DNA of 9,938 nucleotides from Deltaproteobacteria bacterium RIFOXYA12_FULL_61_11 (GTDB taxonomy: Bacteria; Bdellovibrionota_F; JAHFAK01; YA12-FULL-61-11). Below the pieces are notes generated by a model, which made no database searches, was not told where the DNA came from, and saw only the letters and a list, made by a program, of their open reading frames with translations. A program made the translations under genes and the position numbers. The stretch spans positions 1-9,938 of the forward strand of contig MGSU01000139.1 in NCBI GenBank assembly GCA_001799195.1, read 5' to 3'. Each line of letters begins with the position of its first letter. Position 1 is the stretch's first letter. Positions 446 through 9,938 of the stretch are shown here, piece after piece.

Positions 446-1198
446 TCAACCCGGATCGTCAGCCAGACTGTCGACCTGATCGAAACGGGCAGTGTGGGGG
501 CCTGTGGCCACGACCTTGAAATACACCGGCTCCGAAATGTAGTCGCCACTGGTGACCTGGAGCCGAACCCCGGCGATCCCTTCCTGCACCGAATCGTTGA
601 CCAAGGTCAGGACCTGAGAAGCGCTCTCACCTTCGAGGAGCGGCACCGTCGTGGGAAGGTCCTGCATCCCCGCGCCAATGGGTTCTTTGTCTTCCGAGTA
701 CACCCGGTACAGACAAATCATGCCATCGCGAGGTTCCTGGCCAAAATTGCTGACCACCACCTTGACCTGCAGGTCGAAACTCCCCGTCACCTGATTGAGG
801 TACACGAGATCGCTCACGATCAGAGAAGTTTCCACGAGCGGAGGGAGAACGGGGACTTGATCATCCGAGGGTTCGACCGGCACCGGGGGTTCTGCTACTC
901 CGGGAGGCCCGGGAGGTCCCTGAGGCCCGGTGACTTGCTCAAGGAATTCATCATCCCTCTTCAACCGCTCGGCGAGGCGTTCCACCAACTCGGCATAGAT
1001 CTCTTCCTCCGAGAGCTCCTGGTCCTCGAGAGTGGCGAACAGCGCAGCAGTCCCGAGACGCACAGGATCATCGGCAAGACTTGTCCCATCAGCACTGCTG
1101 TCGTCGAGGTGCTGAGGTTCATGATCTCCAGGTTCCGTGGCAGATTCCCCGCACCCGCTGAGAACGAGCAGGAGGACACTGAGGAGAGAACGAGACAT
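446..1198 (-). CDS. Predicted outer-membrane lipoprotein with a short collagen-like tract
   Basis: A protein of 250 residues. Residues 1-16 form a lipoprotein signal peptide: MSRS, a hydrophobic stretch, then the lipobox LSGC with the lipidated Cys at 16. The residue after Cys is Gly rather than Asp, which by the usual sorting rule points to the outer membrane. An acidic, low-complexity segment follows, with a helical LSEEEIYAELVERLAERL stretch, then a collagen-type run GPQGPPGPPG at about 91-100 and a Pro-rich linker. The last 120 residues look like a beta-sandwich (SLIVSDLVYLNQ, FDLQVKVVVSNFG, GVRLQVTSG), resembling CARDB or fibronectin-type adhesion modules; that likeness is inference. The ATG at 1198 was chosen over an upstream in-frame ATG at 1291 because it begins the signal peptide and has GAGAGGTG just upstream (1203-1210). 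It is transcribed divergently from the large operon; a functional link is unproven. Confidence 0.82.
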   Translation of the reverse strand: MSRSLLSVLLLVLSGCGESATEPGDHEPQHLDDSSADGTSLADDPVRLGTAALFATLEDQELSEEEIYAELVERLAERLKRDDEFLEQVTGPQGPPGPPGVAEPPVPVEPSDDQVPVLPPLVETSLIVSDLVYLNQVTGSFDLQVKVVVSNFGQEPRDGMICLYRVYSEDKEPIGAGMQDLPTTVPLLEGESASQVLTLVNDSVQEGIAGVRLQVTSGDYISEPVYFKVVATGPHTARFDQVDSLADDPG

Positions 1199-1336
1199 GG
1201 CACACCTCTCGCTGGTCGAAGGTTCCCCCCGACCATGACGTATTCCACATCCTGGTGCAACCGGTAAATGTCCATGGCGTCCTCGGTGCATGTGAGAGAG
1301 AACATCACCGGGTACAGCCTATGGCAAGGGCATATT

Positions 1337-1404: not shown

Positions 1405-3834
1405 ATGAAGGTACTCCTCGCCAACCCACCCTGGCTCAAGAAGGGATATTATGGCGTGCGCGCCGGCTCACGCTGGCCTCATTTCGAGAACGAGCACAGT
1501 TGCTACGTCCCCTACCCCTTCTTCCTCGGGTATTCGACCGCTCTCCTGCTCGAACGCGGACACGAGGCCGTACTCCTCGACGCGTGTGCAAGCCGAGAAG
1601 ACTACGAAACCTTTTATCGGCGCGTCCTCGCCGAAACCCCCGAGGTCGTCCTCCTGGAGGTCTCGACCATTTCCATCGCCAACGACCTCCTCGTGGCCCG
1701 CGAGCTGCGCCGTCGGCTCGGCCGCAACATTCGCCTGGGCTTTGCCGGGTTGCACAGCTTCATGTATACCCCGGCCTTCCTCGAAGGCCACCCCGACCTC
1801 GACTTCATCTTGATCGGCGAATACGAACTACCGCTCCTCGGCTACATCGAAGCCCTCTCGGGCCGCGGCACCTTCGGACAAGTCCCTGGTCTGATTGTCA
1901 GACACCGCGGCAAGATCCTGGCAACTCCGCGCGGGTCCAACCTCCACGAGCTCGATCTCTTGCCCTGGCCGTGTCGCGACCAAGTCGACCTGCACCTCTA
2001 CAACGACACCCCCGGCGGTATCCCCTCACCCTCGCTCCAGCTCTGGTCCAGCCGCGGCTGTCCCTTCGGTTGCATCTTCTGCGCCTGGCCCCAGATCATC
2101 TATGGAGAACGCCGCTATCGCAGCCGCGACCCGCACAAGGTCGTCGACGAGCTCGAGGCCGTGGTGAGCCGGTATTCCATGGCCTCCTTCTATTTCGACG
2201 ATGATACCTTCAACATCGGCCGTCCCAGGGTCCTGGCTCTCTGCGAGGAACTGCTGCGCAGGGGCCTGACCATTCCTTGGGCGGCGATGTGCCGGGCCGA
2301 CCTCATGGATGCCGAACTCCTCGAGAGACTGGCCGGGGCCGGTCTTCGCGCGGTCAAGTATGGAGTAGAGAACGCCACCCAGACCATCCTCGACGGCAGC
2401 GGCAAACGCCTCGACCTCGACCACCTGCGCTCGGTCGTTGCCTCCACCAAGGCCGCGGGCATCCTCACTCACCTGACCTTCATGTTCGGCCTCCCCGGAG
2501 AGACCTACGACTCCGCTCGTCGGACCATCGACCTGGCTCTCGAACTTGACCCTTATACCCTCCAGTTCACGATCGCCACGCCGTTCCCGGGCAGCGACTA
2601 CCACGCCTTCCTCGAACAGCGCGGCCTCTTGGTCAGTCGAGATCACCAACGCTATGACGGTTTCCACTCGGCGGTCATCCGTACCGAATCCCTCGGTCCC
2701 GAGGAACTGATGGACCTCTTGGCCGAGGCCAATCACCGCTGGCGCAGGCACCTGCACCGCCGGGCCGTCGCTGCTCCAGACCAGCACTATGACGTGGACT
2801 GTTCGCTGATCGTGGTCAACCACAACGGTGCTGAGGTGCTGCCACGTTGCCTGGGTTCGTTGGTGGAACAAACCCATCCCTGCCGCGAGATCCTCCTCAT
2901 CGACAACGGTTCCACCGACGGTTCTGCCGAGGCCGCTGCAGCGCAATTCCCTGAAGTGAAAGTACTGCGCTTCCCCTCGAACCGGGGCTACTCCCGAGCC
3001 GTGAACATCGGTATCCGCTGCGCCAAGGGAAAATACCTCGGCCTCATCAACAATGACGCGTCACTCGAACCGCACTGGCTCGAGGTCATCCTGGGTCGTT
3101 TCAGCCGCGAGCCCGAGACCGGGTTGATCGCTTCGCGCATCCTCTACGCAACCCGCCCGGAATTGATCAATTCAGCCGGCGATGGGGTGCTCGCCTCGGG
3201 CTACGTCTACCAACGCGGCAACCACTGCCGCGACGACGAAGACTATGACCAGGCCCGCGAGGTCCTCGGCGCCTGCGGTGCCGCACTCGCCGTACGTGCC
3301 CATCTCTTCAACGATATCGGTACCTTCGATGAAACCTTCGGGATGTATCTCGACGATATCGACTTTTCCCTCCGCGCCAGGTTGTGGGGGTACCGCTGCA
3401 TCTACGAACCCCGGGCACTCGTCTACCACGTCGGCTCCCACACGACGGGATCTTTTTACAATAATACCAATGTGTTTTATATCGCCAAAAACAATGTCAA
3501 CCTGATCATCAAGAACTTCCCCCGCGAACTCCTTCGCAGGCGTTGGCCCTCCATCCTGTTGCACTTCTTCCGACAACAGGGCTATCATACCCTCCGTTCC
3601 GGGCACGGCCTTGCCTATTCCAAAGGACTGCTCCGAGGACTCTTGGAGAGCGGGACCATGCTGACCCGGAGGCGGCATATCCTCGGAGGGAAGCGGATCG
3701 AGTACACCGAGCTCTATACCGAACTGGACCGCTGCGCCGCCGACTACGAAGGCTTCCGACGCCATCGGCAACCGCTCTGGCTGAGCGGGAGGAGAAAGCC
3801 CCAGCATGAGGACTCAGGGCATGAGCACGGGTGA
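1405..3834 (+). CDS. B12-binding-like radical SAM protein fused to a family 2 glycosyltransferase
   Basis: An 809-residue two-enzyme fusion. Residues 1 to about 160 look like the cobalamin-binding-type Rossmann domain that precedes many radical SAM proteins: it opens MKVLLANPPW and continues GYSTALLLERGHEAVLLDA; the classic DxHxxG cobalt-ligand motif is not seen, as is common in this class. Residues 210-430 are the radical SAM domain, with the CxxxCxxC cluster motif in RGCPFGCIFC (Cys 219, 223, 226), YFDDDTF, CRADL, KYGVEN and FGLPGET. From about 465 to 690 is a GT2 transferase of the rhamnosyltransferase-like type: SLIVVNHNG, LLIDNGSTDGS, LINNDA in the DXD position, and MYLDDIDFSLRARLWGY. 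The start was set at the ATG before KVLLANPPW; a GTG at 1393 is also possible, and the ribosome site is weak. No membrane segment is seen. Probable role: radical modification coupled to sugar transfer, substrate unknown. Confidence 0.88.
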   Translation: MKVLLANPPWLKKGYYGVRAGSRWPHFENEHSCYVPYPFFLGYSTALLLERGHEAVLLDACASREDYETFYRRVLAETPEVVLLEVSTISIANDLLVARELRRRLGRNIRLGFAGLHSFMYTPAFLEGHPDLDFILIGEYELPLLGYIEALSGRGTFGQVPGLIVRHRGKILATPRGSNLHELDLLPWPCRDQVDLHLYNDTPGGIPSPSLQLWSSRGCPFGCIFCAWPQIIYGERRYRSRDPHKVVDELEAVVSRYSMASFYFDDDTFNIGRPRVLALCEELLRRGLTIPWAAMCRADLMDAELLERLAGAGLRAVKYGVENATQTILDGSGKRLDLDHLRSVVASTKAAGILTHLTFMFGLPGETYDSARRTIDLALELDPYTLQFTIATPFPGSDYHAFLEQRGLLVSRDHQRYDGFHSAVIRTESLGPEELMDLLAEANHRWRRHLHRRAVAAPDQHYDVDCSLIVVNHNGAEVLPRCLGSLVEQTHPCREILLIDNGSTDGSAEAAAAQFPEVKVLRFPSNRGYSRAVNIGIRCAKGKYLGLINNDASLEPHWLEVILGRFSREPETGLIASRILYATRPELINSAGDGVLASGYVYQRGNHCRDDEDYDQAREVLGACGAALAVRAHLFNDIGTFDETFGMYLDDIDFSLRARLWGYRCIYEPRALVYHVGSHTTGSFYNNTNVFYIAKNNVNLIIKNFPRELLRRRWPSILLHFFRQQGYHTLRSGHGLAYSKGLLRGLLESGTMLTRRRHILGGKRIEYTELYTELDRCAADYEGFRRHRQPLWLSGRRKPQHEDSGHEHG
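3787..3795 (+). promoter_or_regulatory. Ribosome binding site inside the preceding gene
   Basis: GGGAGGAGA lies 10 bases before the ATG at 3806 and within the last codons of the radical SAM-glycosyltransferase gene. It decides the start of the next gene in favour of 3806 over a second in-frame ATG at 3821, and implies translational coupling through a 29-base overlap. Confidence 0.6.
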
Positions 3835-4747
3835 CAAGATCGCCTTGGTCGGCAAACCCCGGCGCGGGAAGAAGCCCTCGAACGCTTCCCCCGAGCCTTC
3901 GCAAACCCCGGTTCCTCCCCCAGACCTCCAAGCTGGGGCAGAGACGAAGCTGCTCGAGGTGGAAGATCTCCGAGCCGAAAACCACCGACTCAAGACCGAG
4001 CTCCTCGACGAATTGCTCCGTTTAGAACACCAACTCGACCGTAAGGACGAGGCCCAAAATAGGAATCTGAGTGAAATCGACGATTTGCGCGACAAACTCG
4101 AGTTCCAGGAGCGCGAACACCGGCGCCTCGCAAGCAAGGTCGAGGAACTGAGCACGGTCTTGCACGACCTGCGAGGGCGCCATGCCTCGGTCTGCGAACA
4201 ACGTGACCATCTCGAGTTCGAGCGCGGCGAAACCCGGGGACAGCTCCTCGGCCTCACCGCCCAGCTCTCGCGTGCCGAGGCCGACCACCAGGCGCTGGTG
4301 CGGGAGCTCCAACGGGTGGAACACGAACGCGCTCGACTGGAGAGGGAGTATCGCGAAGCCTGCACGAGAAGCCACCTCCTCGGAGAGGAACTGCAGGAAC
4401 ATCGAGAAAAGCTGCACCGCGCAGAAGCCGACCGTACCAGGCTCGAACAGGAACTCGAGGCTGCCTCGAAACACCACACTCAGCACCTCGCGGCCCATGA
4501 ACAAGCCTTGGCAGCATTGCGCGAACGCAGCGAGGACGCTGCAACTCGCTTGACCAGGAGGTTGCACGAACTACGTGCCGAGAACCACAACCTAGCCATG
4601 ATCCTGGCCGGAGTACGGGACCACTGGTCGTATCGGTTCCAAAAACGCCTTTGGGTGCTGAGTAAACGGTACGGCCGACAGTATCCCCTGCTGGTTTGGC
4701 TTCTCCTCAAAAGTGTGGTAGCACATGGCCTGCGCCGCTCGGATTGA
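3806..4747 (+). CDS. Coiled-coil protein, paralogue of the next gene
   Basis: A 313-residue protein with no signal peptide. Residues 1-45 are basic then Pro-rich and probably disordered. Residues 48-265 are almost continuous heptad-type coiled coil rich in Leu, Glu, Arg and His. It contains LRAENHRLK at 55-63, followed by ELLDELLRLE, and a second LRAENHNLA at 256-264. The C-terminus (about 272-310) is a distinct compact element: WSYRFQKRLWVLSKRYGRQYP, then a hydrophobic stretch VWLLLKSVVAHG that could pack on a membrane or a partner. Tails of the kind S-YR-xxx-L are common at the ends of coiled-coil extensions in surface-polysaccharide gene clusters; I offer this only as analogy. The function is unknown; a scaffold or tether for the enzymes encoded around it is the best guess. 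It overlaps the upstream gene by 29 bases. Confidence 0.8.
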   Translation: MRTQGMSTGDKIALVGKPRRGKKPSNASPEPSQTPVPPPDLQAGAETKLLEVEDLRAENHRLKTELLDELLRLEHQLDRKDEAQNRNLSEIDDLRDKLEFQEREHRRLASKVEELSTVLHDLRGRHASVCEQRDHLEFERGETRGQLLGLTAQLSRAEADHQALVRELQRVEHERARLEREYREACTRSHLLGEELQEHREKLHRAEADRTRLEQELEAASKHHTQHLAAHEQALAALRERSEDAATRLTRRLHELRAENHNLAMILAGVRDHWSYRFQKRLWVLSKRYGRQYPLLVWLLLKSVVAHGLRRSD

Positions 4748-4777
4748 ACGAGCGCTGAGATAAGACCCCTTTCCCCC

Positions 4778-4783
4778 GAGGTG
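4778..4783 (+). promoter_or_regulatory. Ribosome binding site deciding the start of the second coiled-coil gene
   Basis: GAGGTG sits 6 bases before the ATG at 4790. A GTG start at 4781 is in frame but lies inside this site and has no site of its own, so 4790 is preferred. Confidence 0.5.
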
Positions 4784-4789
4784 TTACTG

Positions 4790-5881
4790 ATGGAGACGTT
4801 GCCTGTCGTCGAGGAACTGCGCAAGCTCAAGAAAGAAGATTTGGTCCAGCGCTGTATCGCGCTGGCAGCCGCGACCTCGAATGACGGCGCTCCTTCCGCG
4901 ATAGAAGAACGCCTCCGGACCTATGAAGAAACCGTGACCAGGTTGGAACAAGGCTTCACCGCGCTCGTCACCGAGCAGGAGCAGAAGCTAGCCGGCTTGA
5001 CCAAAGCCCAAGAAACCCTTGCCCACGAACATGCCGCGCTGCTCACCTCCCACCGTGCCCTTGGTAAGGAGAAAGAACTCCTCACCCGGGAACTCCAGGG
5101 GCTCCAGGGATTGCGCAAAGAACTCGACGAAGCTCGGCGAACCCTCGCGAGAGACGAAGAAGAACGCAAGACCAATCTCCAGGAACTCACCAGACTCCGC
5201 GCCGAGAACCACAAGCTCAAGGAAGAGGTCATCGCCGAATTGCTCCGCCTCGAGGAAGAGCTCAAGCTCAAGGAAAACGATCACCGCAAGGTATTGGAAA
5301 AAATGAGGCAGATGGGTGAGGAGCACGAACGCATCCTCTCCGAAAAGGGCAAGCTCGGGGATGAACTCGACCAACTCAGACACGAGTTCCAGGAACGTCT
5401 CGCCGCCCTGGAAGGTGAAAAAACTCTCCTCAGCGCCGAGGCCGACAAAGTCCGCGGTTATGACCAACTCAAGCGTGACTACGACCACCTGCTCGAAGAG
5501 CACGACGAACTCAAGACGGTCATACGCCACGAGCTCGATCTCCTGGAGAAAGAAGTCGAAGGCAAGGAAAACCTCTTCGCTCAGGCCAACCAGATGATCC
5601 GCGAATTGGAGGAGAGTAAGAATCGCACGATCGAGGAGCTGCGCTCGAGCAAAGGCTCCTTGGAAGGCCACAGCCGCGACCTCGAGGAACGCTTCGCCAA
5701 GCTCGACCTGCAACACCAAGACCTCGTGCAGCAATACCAGAACCTCCGCGAGCGGGCGGCCTTCCGTTTGGCCCACGCGGCTCTGTTCAAGGTCAAGCGG
5801 TACGGTGCTCAGTACCCCACCCTGGCTCGGCTGTTCGTCGATCACCTGGTCCGCAGCGGCGTCAGGATCATTGCAGGCTGA
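4790..5881 (+). CDS. Second coiled-coil protein, paralogue of the preceding gene
   Basis: A 363-residue protein, no signal peptide. Residues 1-30 form a short helical head (VVEELRKLKKEDLVQRC). Residues 40-320 are a long, charged coiled coil dominated by Glu, Lys and Leu. LRAENHKLK at 136-144, followed by EVIAELLRLEEEL, aligns with the LRAENHRLK...ELLDELLRLE element of the upstream gene. The tail AAFRLAHAALFKVKRYGAQYP (RYGAQYP at 337-343), then a hydrophobic-amphipathic stretch and GVR, aligns with that gene's WSYRFQKRLWVLSKRYGRQYP tail. The two are therefore paralogues of different coil length, presumably forming a homo- or heteromeric rod with a shared docking end. No enzymatic motif is seen. 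A 42-base gap precedes it and a 12-base gap follows. Generic coiled-coil similarity to myosin-like proteins should not be over-read. Confidence 0.82.
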   Translation: METLPVVEELRKLKKEDLVQRCIALAAATSNDGAPSAIEERLRTYEETVTRLEQGFTALVTEQEQKLAGLTKAQETLAHEHAALLTSHRALGKEKELLTRELQGLQGLRKELDEARRTLARDEEERKTNLQELTRLRAENHKLKEEVIAELLRLEEELKLKENDHRKVLEKMRQMGEEHERILSEKGKLGDELDQLRHEFQERLAALEGEKTLLSAEADKVRGYDQLKRDYDHLLEEHDELKTVIRHELDLLEKEVEGKENLFAQANQMIRELEESKNRTIEELRSSKGSLEGHSRDLEERFAKLDLQHQDLVQQYQNLRERAAFRLAHAALFKVKRYGAQYPTLARLFVDHLVRSGVRIIAG

Positions 5882-5893
5882 CCGGACCCCCCC

Positions 5894-7537
5894 GTGCTGA
5901 CAGCCGATCTCTTCAGCTCCAGGATCAACAAACTGGACCAACGGATGCACCACCTGGGGGGTACTGCCGTCCCACCCGACAATGCCCAACTCGCGCGCTA
6001 CCAAAAAGAACTGGAGCAATTGGTGCGTCCGATGCTCGAGGCCGAACGGGACTACGTCCTGTTGGCCGACGACCTGGACTTGCATCGTCGGCTGACCGGT
6101 TCGATCGAGGATTTCGAGACCCGCCTCGAGCGTTACCGCCAGCGCCCGACGGGACACCGCACCCCGCTCGGCGTAAGCCGCTACAATTTCTTCCGGCTCG
6201 ATCAGATCCTCCACTTCGCAAGCACCGGAGAACGGTCGCAGAGCTATCCCGAGGACTACCTGTTCCGACCGAGACCCTTCCGAGAACTGCGCAGGACCTT
6301 CCTGGCCTACCTCACAGCCATCGCTGAACGGGCCACCGCGGCTGGTCTGGAGTTGGTCTGGTACGACCCCGAGGTCCCCGAGCTGATCAACTCCTTCGCC
6401 GCTGCAGCAGAACATACGTCAGAGCGAGAACTGATCCGATTGTTCGGTGTGGTGGTCGAACACGCCTTCATCGGTCCCCAGACCATTGTCCTCGACCCGC
6501 ACCACCTCTGCAACGCGAGCTGCGAGCACTGTTGGATCCACACGCCGGACGTACACCACGAACCCGACTTCTACCGCCGGAGCTTCGACTGGGAGGTCTA
6601 CAAGGCCCTGATCGATGACTGCGCTGCCATGGAAGTCGACGGCATCATCTTCCAGGGCGACGGAGAACCCCTCGCCTACCGTCGTTTCCGGGACATGCTC
6701 ATCTACGCGCGGGACCGTGAGGTCAATGTCTCTTTCTTCACCAACGGCATCCTCCTCGACGAGGAGCTGGCAGCGTTGGTGGTCGACCGCTCGGTCAAGG
6801 AGATCTTTTGCAGCCTGCCAGCAGCGACCAGCCGGACCTGGGGCAAGATCAACACCCGCTGCGATGCCGGGACCTTCGACACCATCCTCTCGAACCTCAG
6901 CAACCTGACCAGGTTGAAACGGGCCGCAGGGGTCGAGCGACCGGTCCTCCAGTTGACCCATGTCATCCATACGATGAACTGGCGCGAGGTGCCGCTGATG
7001 GCGCGCAATGACGCCATGGTCGGCGCCGATCTCTCGAGGTTCTATCTCATACGTCTCGACCACAACCTGCGCTACTTGCAACTGCGCGACCATGAGGTGG
7101 CAGCGCTCATGGAACAGATTCCCAGGGTTCGCGCCTTCCTGCGTTCGACTCTCTCCACCACCCTGGTCGACAACATCGACTTCCAGCTCAACAACTACGC
7201 TGCCGCCGATGGATCCTGGGCCAGCGACACCTTCCTGCGCATCGGTTGCACGATCGGCTTCTACTTCTGCCTGATTCCGGCTCGCCTGGACCTCAGCCTG
7301 TGCTGTCATCTCCGTACCATCGGGCACCTCGATTGGATCGGTTTCAAGGAACTGTGGTTCTCCGACCACTACCAACGGATCCGCCACCAGGCAAAACATC
7401 TGCGTCGCTACCGCGACGTCAATTTCCTCAACGGGGCCAGATTGTATGACGAGCACTGCACCCATTGCGACAATCACCAGCAGTTGCTCCGTACCAATGA
7501 GCAACTCCAACACCTCGATCTGCTGCGTTTCTGTTGA
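5894..7537 (+). CDS. Radical SAM protein with a SPASM-like cysteine-rich tail
   Basis: A 547-residue protein from a GTG start 12 bases after the previous stop; the ribosome site is poor, so the start is uncertain. Residues 1-190 are an unassigned, mostly helical extension. The radical SAM domain runs from about 196 to 400: CxxxCxxC in HLCNASCEHCW (Cys 206, 210, 213) to hold the 4Fe-4S cluster that cleaves S-adenosylmethionine, FQGDGEPL at 253-260 in place of the usual GGEP, and VSFFTNGILL as the next strand. The C-terminal part has Cys 452 and 459, a Cys-Cys pair at 470-471 (SLCCHL), Cys 522 and 525 (CTHC) and Cys 547 as the last residue. This arrangement recalls SPASM/Twitch domains that bind auxiliary Fe-S clusters, but the spacing is not canonical. 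SPASM enzymes modify peptides, sugars or other substrates; the substrate here is unknown. Confidence 0.86.
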   Translation: MLTADLFSSRINKLDQRMHHLGGTAVPPDNAQLARYQKELEQLVRPMLEAERDYVLLADDLDLHRRLTGSIEDFETRLERYRQRPTGHRTPLGVSRYNFFRLDQILHFASTGERSQSYPEDYLFRPRPFRELRRTFLAYLTAIAERATAAGLELVWYDPEVPELINSFAAAAEHTSERELIRLFGVVVEHAFIGPQTIVLDPHHLCNASCEHCWIHTPDVHHEPDFYRRSFDWEVYKALIDDCAAMEVDGIIFQGDGEPLAYRRFRDMLIYARDREVNVSFFTNGILLDEELAALVVDRSVKEIFCSLPAATSRTWGKINTRCDAGTFDTILSNLSNLTRLKRAAGVERPVLQLTHVIHTMNWREVPLMARNDAMVGADLSRFYLIRLDHNLRYLQLRDHEVAALMEQIPRVRAFLRSTLSTTLVDNIDFQLNNYAAADGSWASDTFLRIGCTIGFYFCLIPARLDLSLCCHLRTIGHLDWIGFKELWFSDHYQRIRHQAKHLRRYRDVNFLNGARLYDEHCTHCDNHQQLLRTNEQLQHLDLLRFC

Positions 7538-9827
7538 GCCCGAGGACCCTGACCCGATCCCGACTCCCCAGGTGCACCTCCCTCACTTCGAGCCTGGGCA
7601 ATGGTCCCCGGAAACCTTCTTCGACCTCGACCGGGCCGTGCGCAAACTGGGCACAGCGGTCGGTGTTCCCGGAGTTCCTCGCTACCGTCTCGGGGCCGGC
7701 AACTCCCTTCCCCCCCGTGCCGGCATCCTGAGGCTACTCCCTGCTCCTGCCACCTTCGACCTGGACTGGTGGCCGGAATATCTTTCACCGTTCTTCCTCG
7801 ATGAGGTGGACGGCGGCCTCAACCTCCAGCTCCACCTGCGCTCTCCCGACACCTTCCTCGAACTCCTCGGCAGGTTGAGCGAGCTTCCCCTCTCCGGACT
7901 GCATCTGCATCCCGCAAAACCCCTGGTCCCGGAACTCCTGGCGGGGCGTGACGCCCCCCCAGGTATGGTCCTGAAGGTCTTCTCAGGCACTTCCTGGAAT
8001 TCCCTGCTCCCGGGTGAGACCTATCCCGCAGCGCCTCCCTTCGCGTATGCGGGCAATGAACCGAGTACATTCCGTTGCGGGCTGCGGGGCACCTTCTGGG
8101 TGGATGAGCACGGGTCCTTGCTCACCTGCGAGCAATGTGGCCCAGTCGCTTGGTTGCGAGGAGGCAGAGCGGAAGACACGGGTGACGCCTATCTCGCGCA
8201 GGTCGAGCGCTATCGTGCCGGATGCCCCGTCCCCTGCCGTTTCCACCGCGATCACCCCCCGACTTCCCATGCTCCCGCCCATAACCTTCCTCGAATTCCC
8301 CCTCCTATCAATCCACTCGAGAGAGTCCGATACGGTCTCCGCCGCCTCGCTGCAGGCGATACTACCTTGGGAACCCTGTACCTCGCCTCCGCTGCAACCT
8401 CCTCCGAGAAGGACCCTACCCTCGGGTCTCCCATGCTCGCGAACTTGCTCTCCAAGGCGGGTCGGGACGACCCGGAGTTCCATCTCGACCTGCAACGCCT
8501 GCTGCGCCAGGATCCTTGGCGCCCCGAATTGTATATCGTAGACGGCTTCGACCGGCTCCTCCGCTCGAGACTCGCTGGCGCCGAGAGCCGTTTTCGTCAA
8601 GCCTTGACCCTCGATCCTTCCTTCTTCCCTGCTCGGCAAGGACTGGCAGTCACGTTACTGGCTCGCGGCAACCTCGGAGCGGCGCGAACAGCGGCGATCG
8701 GATTGGAGGGACATTGCTCCCCCTTGCTCCTCTCCCTGCTGCGCGATGAGGTACAACCCGGATCATTGGTCGTGCGCTTGTTCGGACAAACCCTGCCCGA
8801 GGAACTACTCGACCACGGCCAACGACCTCGTTTCATCAACCTCGGGTTGACCGACGACTGCATGTTGCGCTGCAAGATGTGCTTCAAGTGGAAGAATGGC
8901 GGCCGCGCCACCGGCCGGGTGCCCCTCGAGACCTGGTATCGAGCTTTGACTGACCTCGGCGAAGCGTGTCATCACGAGGCCTCGCTCAACCTCGCCGGCG
9001 GTGAGCCCTTCTCCGATCCCCATGCCGTCGAACTCATCGCACAGGCCTCGGGACAGGGCTTGCACACCAACGTGTGCACCAACGGTTATGTCCTCAACGA
9101 GACGCTGCTCCAAGAACTCGATCGTGCCGGGCTTTCGCTTATGGCCCTCTCGCTCGACTCCCTCGACCCCGCCATCCACGACGGCTTGCGCGGCGTACCC
9201 GGCGTACTGGCGCATGCGCTCGAGCTGATCACCGCTATCGAGGCCCTCAAACCCCGGTTCCAACTCGACCTGCAACCGCTCTTGTTGCGCCCTAACCTGC
9301 CCGGTCTGCTCGAGCTCCTGCGCTTCGCCGATGGTCACAAAGCCATTTCCGGGGTCAACTTCCTGGCCATGATCCGACCGCATAACAGCCCAACGACGAA
9401 GCGATCCTGGCGGGACGCCAGTACCGGACTCTGGCCGGAGACCGCCGCTCTCGAAGCCCTGCTCGACGAACTCGTCGCGGCCAAAAAGGCCGGCGCGAAG
9501 ATCAACAATTCCTTCGAACAGCTCGAATTGTACCGTCGCTATTATCGTGACCCGGAGCGCTGTGATCTCGGCACCGGCACCTGCCTGGTCGGCGACTACT
9601 TCGTCAACCTCAATTTCGACGGTTGCTTCGAGTTATGCCCATATATCAATGGGGTGGATACCCACCTCGGCTTCCTGCACCAAGCCTCGCTGTTGCATCT
9701 ACGCGCCTCAGCCGCGGCTAAAGACGCTCGTCGCACCATGCGCCGCTGCACCCAGAATTGTTATCTGCGCCTGAACTGCTTGCACGCCTTCGAGAGCGGC
9801 ACCGATCGGGCCAACCAAGGAGCATGA
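7497..9827 (+). CDS. Composite protein: SPASM-like cysteine module, TPR-like linker, radical SAM/SPASM enzyme
   Basis: From the ATG at 7497 this is 776 residues, overlapping the previous gene by 41 bases. An ATG at 7446 (92-base overlap) and a GTG at 7572 (no overlap) are alternatives; none has a clear ribosome site. The N-terminal third lacks CxxxCxxC but carries a cysteine pattern like the end of a radical SAM enzyme: Cys 194 in FRCGLRGTFW, Cys 211 and 214 in LLTCEQCG, Cys 243 and 247 in CPVPC. Residues about 360-400 resemble a TPR repeat (FRQALTLDPSFFPARQGLA). The C-terminal half is a complete radical SAM domain: CMLRCKMC (Cys 455, 459, 462), LAGGEPF near 500, CTNGY and LSLDS. Its SPASM tail has Cys 696, 710, 714, 751, 755 and 761. 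It probably uses auxiliary Fe-S clusters to modify an unknown substrate. Confidence 0.86.
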   Translation: MSNSNTSICCVSVEPEDPDPIPTPQVHLPHFEPGQWSPETFFDLDRAVRKLGTAVGVPGVPRYRLGAGNSLPPRAGILRLLPAPATFDLDWWPEYLSPFFLDEVDGGLNLQLHLRSPDTFLELLGRLSELPLSGLHLHPAKPLVPELLAGRDAPPGMVLKVFSGTSWNSLLPGETYPAAPPFAYAGNEPSTFRCGLRGTFWVDEHGSLLTCEQCGPVAWLRGGRAEDTGDAYLAQVERYRAGCPVPCRFHRDHPPTSHAPAHNLPRIPPPINPLERVRYGLRRLAAGDTTLGTLYLASAATSSEKDPTLGSPMLANLLSKAGRDDPEFHLDLQRLLRQDPWRPELYIVDGFDRLLRSRLAGAESRFRQALTLDPSFFPARQGLAVTLLARGNLGAARTAAIGLEGHCSPLLLSLLRDEVQPGSLVVRLFGQTLPEELLDHGQRPRFINLGLTDDCMLRCKMCFKWKNGGRATGRVPLETWYRALTDLGEACHHEASLNLAGGEPFSDPHAVELIAQASGQGLHTNVCTNGYVLNETLLQELDRAGLSLMALSLDSLDPAIHDGLRGVPGVLAHALELITAIEALKPRFQLDLQPLLLRPNLPGLLELLRFADGHKAISGVNFLAMIRPHNSPTTKRSWRDASTGLWPETAALEALLDELVAAKKAGAKINNSFEQLELYRRYYRDPERCDLGTGTCLVGDYFVNLNFDGCFELCPYINGVDTHLGFLHQASLLHLRASAAAKDARRTMRRCTQNCYLRLNCLHAFESGTDRANQGA
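9817..9822 (+). promoter_or_regulatory. Ribosome binding site for the truncated last gene
   Basis: AAGGAG lies 7 bases before the ATG at 9830, and only 1 base before the in-frame ATG at 9824, so 9830 is the better start. It sits within the end of the preceding gene. Confidence 0.55.
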
Positions 9828-9829
9828 CC

Positions 9830-9938
9830 ATGAGCATGGCGAGGAGCGGAGACATACGCGGCCCAGTGAAGATACTCCGGCTGTGTGATGACGGACGCGG
9901 TGAAGGTCGTCTCGAGGATCGAGCGGTACTTTGTTCGC
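9830..9938 (+). CDS. 5' end of an unidentified gene, cut by the window edge
   Basis: An open frame of 36 complete codons runs to the right edge. From 9830 it reads MSMARSGDIRGPVKILRL, then CDDGRGEGRLEDRAVLCS. In-frame ATGs at 9824, 9830 and 9836 compete; 9824 forms an ATGA overlap with the preceding stop, while 9830 has the best-placed AAGGAG. The VKILRLCDD segment could be the first beta strand of a Rossmann-type enzyme such as a glycosyltransferase, but too little is visible to assign anything. It is the likely sixth gene of the rightward operon. Confidence 0.55.
   Translation, partial: MSMARSGDIRGPVKILRLCDDGRGEGRLEDRAVLCS

Follow-up and report, generated by a model that had tools for sequence, protein, structure and literature searches.

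Background and Overview

Coiled-coil terminators are described for O-polysaccharide systems that depend on an ATP-binding cassette (ABC) exporter, namely those of E. coli O9a (WbdD/WbdA together with Wzm and Wzt) and of Klebsiella O4, O7, and O12 (PMC11231755; PMC3482155). In the WbdD model, the distance between polymerase and terminating enzyme is set by a coiled-coil ruler that has an amphipathic helix at its C-terminus (PMC11231755; PMC3482155), and a carbohydrate-binding domain (CBM) on Wzt checks the end group of the chain (PMC11231755). Action of radical S-adenosylmethionine (SAM) enzymes on sugars is known from a few antibiotics, and in the open-access literature searched it is not known to be routine in surface-glycan assembly. 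Here we describe an operon with three radical SAM proteins and two coiled-coil proteins on contig MGSU01000139.1 of Deltaproteobacteria bacterium RIFOXYA12_FULL_61_11, a metagenome-assembled genome of 4.64 Mb in 342 contigs that is 87% complete. The window, i.e., the whole stretch of 9,938 nucleotides that was analyzed, is the entire contig (G000:C139), and its end falls inside the sixth gene. The operon is read as one for glycan editing because relatives of its genes occupy sugar-chain clusters, some of which adjoin a polysaccharide exporter. Its surface-glycan context is well supported by gene neighborhoods and it probably edits a cell-surface glycan by radical chemistry. We consider it fairly likely that the window represents part of an ABC-exporter (Wzm/Wzt)-type surface-glycan assembly operon, whose radical SAM enzymes would tailor sugars, coupled to glycosyltransferases (GTs).

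Organization of the Operon

On the plus strand, from position 1405 to the contig end, five complete genes are followed by a truncated one:

1405-3834, plus strand: P0001, 809 amino acids (aa); degenerate B12-like Rossmann domain (N-terminal), radical SAM domain, and family 2 glycosyltransferase (GT2) domain (C-terminal)
3806-4747, plus strand: P0002, 313 aa; coiled coil whose C-terminus forms a short tail, hydrophobic/amphipathic in character, RFQKRLWVLSKRYGRQYPLLVWLLLKSVVAHG
4781-5881 (GTG start) or 4790-5881 (ATG start), plus strand: P0003, 366 or 363 aa; coiled coil with a tail related to that of P0002, KRYGAQYPTLARLFVDHLVRSGVR
5894-7537, plus strand: P0004, 547 aa; radical SAM domain preceded by about 190 N-terminal residues and followed by SPASM-like C-terminal cysteines
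7497-9827, plus strand: P0005, 776 aa; N-terminal region with extra cysteines, TPR segment, and C-terminal radical SAM domain
9824-9938, plus strand: start of a sixth gene, beginning MTMSMARSGDIRGPVKILRLCDDGRGEGRLEDRAVLCS; ATGA overlap with the TGA of P0005; cut by the contig end

The genes for P0001 and P0002 overlap by 29 bases, which an internal ATG at 3821 would reduce to 14, and those for P0004 and P0005 by 41 bases, while the gaps amount to 42 bases between P0002 and P0003, if the latter starts at the ATG at 4790, and 12 bases between P0003 and P0004. An earlier note on this DNA had described six co-directional genes with these overlaps and gaps and a coupled sixth start, three of them encoding radical SAM proteins with an intact CxxxCxxC motif, one of these fused to a GT2; all coordinates were reproduced, the three motifs were located, and the Pfam families Radical_SAM (in P0001, P0004, and P0005) and Glycos_transf_2 (in P0001) were matched above cut-off. 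Searches of the window for tRNAs and Rfam RNAs found none, and none of the fetched loci gives a significant match to the fragment of the sixth gene.

Relatives of P0001 Reside in Glycan Loci of Many Phyla

A single scan with P0001 and its sister-cluster relative P0007 yielded 65 loci, 63 of which were used (L056-L118, 1.0 Mb in total), and the loci of P0001 homologs are named to more than 10 phyla. Among 133 co-directional neighbor proteins of P0001 homologs, the most frequent Pfam families are Radical_SAM (17), GT4, i.e., glycosyltransferase group 1 (15), SPASM (8), GT2 (7), and epimerase (7); ABC ATPases account for five. Wzm/Wzt directly adjoin the P0001 homolog in six loci (L070, L084, L086, L091, L092, and L117). 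The Wzt_C domain is present in five of the 63 loci, against an expected value of about 0.1 derived from a background of 41 matches in 116 whole genomes (about 0.1 per Mb, taking about 3 Mb per genome), an expectation that is an estimate only because genome samples and search methods differ. Full fusions of a radical SAM domain with a GT2 account for 11 rows of the alignment including the window, the ten others being loci named to Planctomycetota, Cloacimonadota, Wallbacteria, Myxococcota, and further groups. All 11 retain the second acidic motif of the GT2, and the first is degenerate in L060-L062. Invariance of LANPPW and AGSRWPH was set aside as evidence, since those peptides seeded the search. 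Genes labeled carbamoyltransferase-like by eye from their N-terminal sequence lie near P0001- or P9-type radical SAM genes (L056 3985-5667, L110 3385-5067, and L159 12505-14211).

P0001 Combines an AprD4-Like Fold With a Glycosyltransferase

P0001 joins an AprD4/HpnJ-like radical SAM domain to a GT2. Its CxxxCxxC motif (C219/C223/C226, nucleotides 2059-2082) lies in a Radical_SAM domain matched with 2.4e-16, and the GT2 domain (6.2e-28, approximately nucleotides 2794-3684) has its motifs NNDA and DDIDF intact; a B12-binding match remains below cut-off. The cobalamin motif DxHxxG of class B radical SAM enzymes is absent in all 43 aligned members of the P0001 family, and B12-dependent methylation by P0001 was rejected on this ground. 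In an AlphaFold2 model built from these 43 rows (mean predicted local distance difference test, pLDDT, 91.2), the closest solved structure to residues 1-455 is AprD4 (6fd2; Z 35.9, root-mean-square deviation 3.0, 426 aligned residues), the next-best structures reaching Z 28.6 and below, and the C-terminal part matches GT2-fold glycosyltransferases. AprD4 is the radical SAM 1,2-diol dehydratase of apramycin biosynthesis; it removes a sugar-ring hydroxyl, and its structure includes the sugar substrate paromamine. This fold therefore offers a precedent for action on sugars, although a common fold does not prove AprD4-like chemistry: P0001 is only 23-25% identical to AprD4 and carries a GT2, the window has no gene for an AprD3 reductase, and the score against the NCBIfam model of AprD4 (NF033070) is 108 bits, below the cut-off of 500.

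That AprD4 is the nearest solved structure, and that the known radical SAM sugar enzymes stem from antibiotic-type pathways (PMC5461906; PMC10991966), would fit the release of a soluble, aminoglycoside-like oligosaccharide natural product that depends on sugar chemistry of the AprD4, NeoN, or BtrN type. We give this little chance, as hallmark genes of natural-product pathways are absent from the neighbor tallies and the links of two of the window's radical SAM families to Wzm/Wzt and Wzt_C indicate an exported, lipid-linked polymer.

The best NCBIfam match of P0001, located in its N-terminal half, is the hopanoid-associated radical SAM protein HpnJ (TIGR03471). An HpnJ-like P0001 might accordingly act on a membrane lipid by modifying its sugar-like side chain, to which the GT2, a domain type that acts on lipid carriers too, would add, as in a glycolipid or hopanoid-type lipid-head pathway. 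The score of 207.6 bits is however far under the cut-off of 577.6, the GT2 fusion sets P0001 apart from HpnJ, and its relatives sit in polysaccharide clusters. A hopanoid pathway was rejected after a search for squalene-hopene cyclase (PF13243) in the 87%-complete genome gave no match, and such a lipid-head pathway appears improbable to us.

P0004 Relatives Adjoin Wzm/Wzt Exporters

With a profile of the P0004 family made from the window's own genome, full-length members were found in few genomes, yet in 7/7 genomes of one other phylum. Because this A4 profile also matches the P8 family, P0004-family membership was assigned by a maximum-likelihood tree of 68 radical SAM domains and not by E-value alone. 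The tree recovers the P0004 clade (support 97/88). In four loci (L152, L154, L184, and L185) a P0004-family member overlaps or abuts a Wzt bearing Wzt_C; Wzm precedes in three of the four, and further family members follow, two each in L152, L184, and L185 and one in L154. The P0004 of the window is sister (99/92) to the third radical SAM gene of the exporter loci L152, L184, and L185, together with one further gene, so that its sister genes in another phylum stand in loci of the order Wzm–radical SAM–Wzt–radical SAM–radical SAM. Two radical SAM families of the window are therefore independently linked to a Wzm/Wzt exporter, and these Wzm–radical SAM–Wzt loci form compact units for testing.

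Gene fusions add to these links. We found P9C-P4 fusions in six genomes, a P5C-P4 fusion (L156), GT4-P9C fusions (C41, L077, L158, and L159), and a P0001-type-P9C-P8 fusion (L157), and each radical SAM family of the window is tied by fusion to another, to GT2/GT4, or to a Wzt_C-like domain, directly or one step removed. Two proteins contain three radical SAM domains each (L157 758-5353, 1531 aa; L077 4857-10004, 1715 aa). The earlier note had proposed a system modifying a surface glycan or glycoconjugate with the help of scaffold proteins; its glycan part is well supported by the GT and epimerase neighbors, the six Wzm/Wzt-adjoining loci, the P0004 relatives, and the fusions to GT4, GT2, and Wzt_C-like domains.

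P0004 and P0005 Resemble Both Sugar and Peptide Enzymes

P0004 has its intact motif at C206/C210/C213 (nucleotides 6509-6532; Radical_SAM 2.3e-13) and SPASM-like cysteines C452, C470, C471, C522, and C525 that are invariant in the family alignment. A structure model of P0004 from the single sequence was discarded (mean pLDDT 40). P0005 has additional SPASM-type cysteines as well. Its motif comprises C455/C459/C462 (nucleotides 8859-8882; Radical_SAM 1.2e-13), the C-terminal part contains CTQNCYLRLNC, and a TPR_19 match (4e-5, segment around 8568-8690) is just under cut-off; its relatives in the same genome are 33-41% identical. A second cysteine set of P0005 between residues 194 and 247 (C194, C211, C214, C243, and C247) is SPASM-like without a radical SAM core and is perhaps a decayed radical SAM protein.

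Among solved structures of SPASM/twitch sugar enzymes (BtrN, BlsE, NeoN, and HygY), P0004 matches BlsE and BtrN, and P0005 matches BlsE. However, the alignment is limited to the radical SAM core and the peptide enzyme PqqE is the better match, in fact the solved structure closest in sequence to both proteins, so that this comparison does not settle the substrate class of P0004 and P0005. SPASM-type radical SAM enzymes often are peptide maturases, and there is weak NCBIfam similarity to several maturase families. A pathway resembling those of ribosomally synthesized and post-translationally modified peptides (RiPPs), in which P0004 and P0005 form bonds within a small precursor and the GT glycosylates this peptide, might be deduced from this, and the earlier note had named it as the alternative. 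We regard it as very unlikely: every NCBIfam maturase score shown is far below its curated cut-off, the genes next to the homologs in other genomes encode GTs, epimerases, and exporters, and the gaps of just 12 and 42 bases leave no room for a precursor gene inside the operon as far as the contig end at 9938, in line with the statement of the same note that none is visible between the genes.

The Coiled-Coil Proteins

P0002 and P0003, which the earlier note had called paralogues, are related beyond coiled-coil composition. Their Smith-Waterman score is 191, against 89 +/- 12 (maximum 131) in 500 shuffles that keep heptad positions, and the last 60 residues alone score 67 vs. 23 +/- 5 when shuffled. 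P0002 matches only generic coiled-coil families in Pfam and NCBIfam, and neither protein has a catalytic domain in these databases. Hydrophobic or amphipathic stretches, which may bind membranes, occur in the tails of P0002, P0003, P0010, and P0023. Coiled-coil genes adjoin GT or radical SAM genes in C41, C137, L077, and L158. The scaffold part of the earlier proposal gained no direct support, the coiled coils being unrecognizable by sequence outside their own genome.

Sister Clusters in the Same Genome

Radical SAM genes are unusually numerous in this genome: a first look with PF04055 gave 140 candidates, the most among the 59 genomes compared, and the best 50 of the 140 were scored. Contig C41 encodes, in this order, the coiled coil P0010, a GT4-radical SAM fusion (P0009), the radical SAM proteins P0008 and P0007, a DegT aminotransferase, and another radical SAM protein; P0007 is 53% identical to the N-terminal part of P0001. 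This glycan cluster also contains a small open reading frame (ORF) for a cysteine-rich, lipoprotein-like protein of 131 aa (L043 15643-16038). On C137, the gene for P0021 overlaps that for the 1368-aa radical SAM protein P0022. P0021 (L052 6656-10030, minus strand) exceeds 1100 aa and consists of a GT-like N-terminus followed mostly by a coiled coil of near-identical repeats (EKQVARYEALLGEKDRLTRKQEEEQERHQAQLEELS); variation in repeat number would alter the length of this giant protein. Three overlapping radical SAM genes lie on C245, and one of them also encodes a coiled coil and a tail that resembles Wzt_C. On C280, P0020 comprises a P0004-type radical SAM domain, a Wzt_C-like region (18.9 bits in Pfam, short of the cut-off; a true Wzt_C is matched by BLAST with E 2e-10), and a P0005-type radical SAM domain, and thereby unites in a single chain what the window has as the neighbors P0004 and P0005.

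Divergent from the operon, the window contains a possible lipoprotein gene (446-1291, minus strand) with a lipobox-like LVLSGCGE and a short collagen-like GPQGPPGPPG, a call that is unsure since the codon score favored an overlapping plus-strand ORF (494-1267).

A Proposed Function and Comparison With Known Systems

In the glycan-assembly reading that we favor, P0001 would use radical chemistry to change a sugar, which its own GT2 would add or extend. P0004 and P0005 would introduce further C-H changes such as epimerization, oxidation, or deoxygenation, and one of the two might place an end group that is read by a Wzt-type carbohydrate-binding domain before export. P0002 and P0003, with their membrane-prone tails, could serve as a scaffold for the enzymes at the inner membrane or determine the chain length in a WbdD-like manner. 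Export of the window's product via Wzm/Wzt, the chemistry and substrate, the capping idea, and the role of the coiled coils as ruler or scaffold are what we infer from the relatives described above.

Several observations weigh against this assignment. The contig encodes no Wzm, Wzt, polymerase, or flippase, and the only above-cut-off Wzt_C of the genome is on contig C81 without an adjoining radical SAM gene. In 55/63 loci of the P0001 family no Wzm/Wzt lies within the fetched stretch, which makes other export routes possible. The strict co-occurrence of the gene set in the same order across genomes, raised in the earlier note, was not recovered, and the exact six-gene set did not turn up a second time. 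A query with P0003 across 192 genomes gave no match outside its own genome, and the coiled coils of the window are standalone proteins, whereas that of WbdD is joined to a catalytic domain.

Surface-polysaccharide assembly itself is already known, whereas its strong reliance on radical SAM enzymes that are linked and fused appears to be new. In the open-access literature we found no description of radical SAM enzymes in polysaccharide or O-antigen clusters, or of GT-fused radical SAM proteins, that matches this system, and the radical SAM proteins of the window reach no curated radical SAM family cut-off. The Xanthomonas papers found to mention both radical SAM and Wzm concern unrelated genes. 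Linkage and fusion of radical SAM, GT, and exporter genes in many phyla would imply a wealth of unknown C-H chemistry on the surface sugars of bacteria and suggests candidate glycan roles for some of the many radical SAM families without function. A bolder and rather doubtful proposal is that these loci form an undescribed, widespread class of surface-polysaccharide assembly: several radical SAM enzymes would edit sugars of the growing chain in place, a radical-made end group would serve as the export signal for Wzt_C-type domains, and coiled coils would act as length rulers; if true, this class would parallel the kinase/methyltransferase terminator WbdD by means of radical chemistry.

Compared with the coiled-coil-terminator systems of E. 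coli O9a and Klebsiella, the window differs in that its coiled coils lack a kinase, methyltransferase, or Kdo transferase and several radical SAM enzymes are present instead. It resembles them in having GT modules in single and fused proteins and long coiled coils with a C-terminal amphipathic or hydrophobic segment, and its relatives carry Wzm, Wzt, and Wzt_C, including a Wzt_C-like domain fused to a P0004-type radical SAM enzyme.

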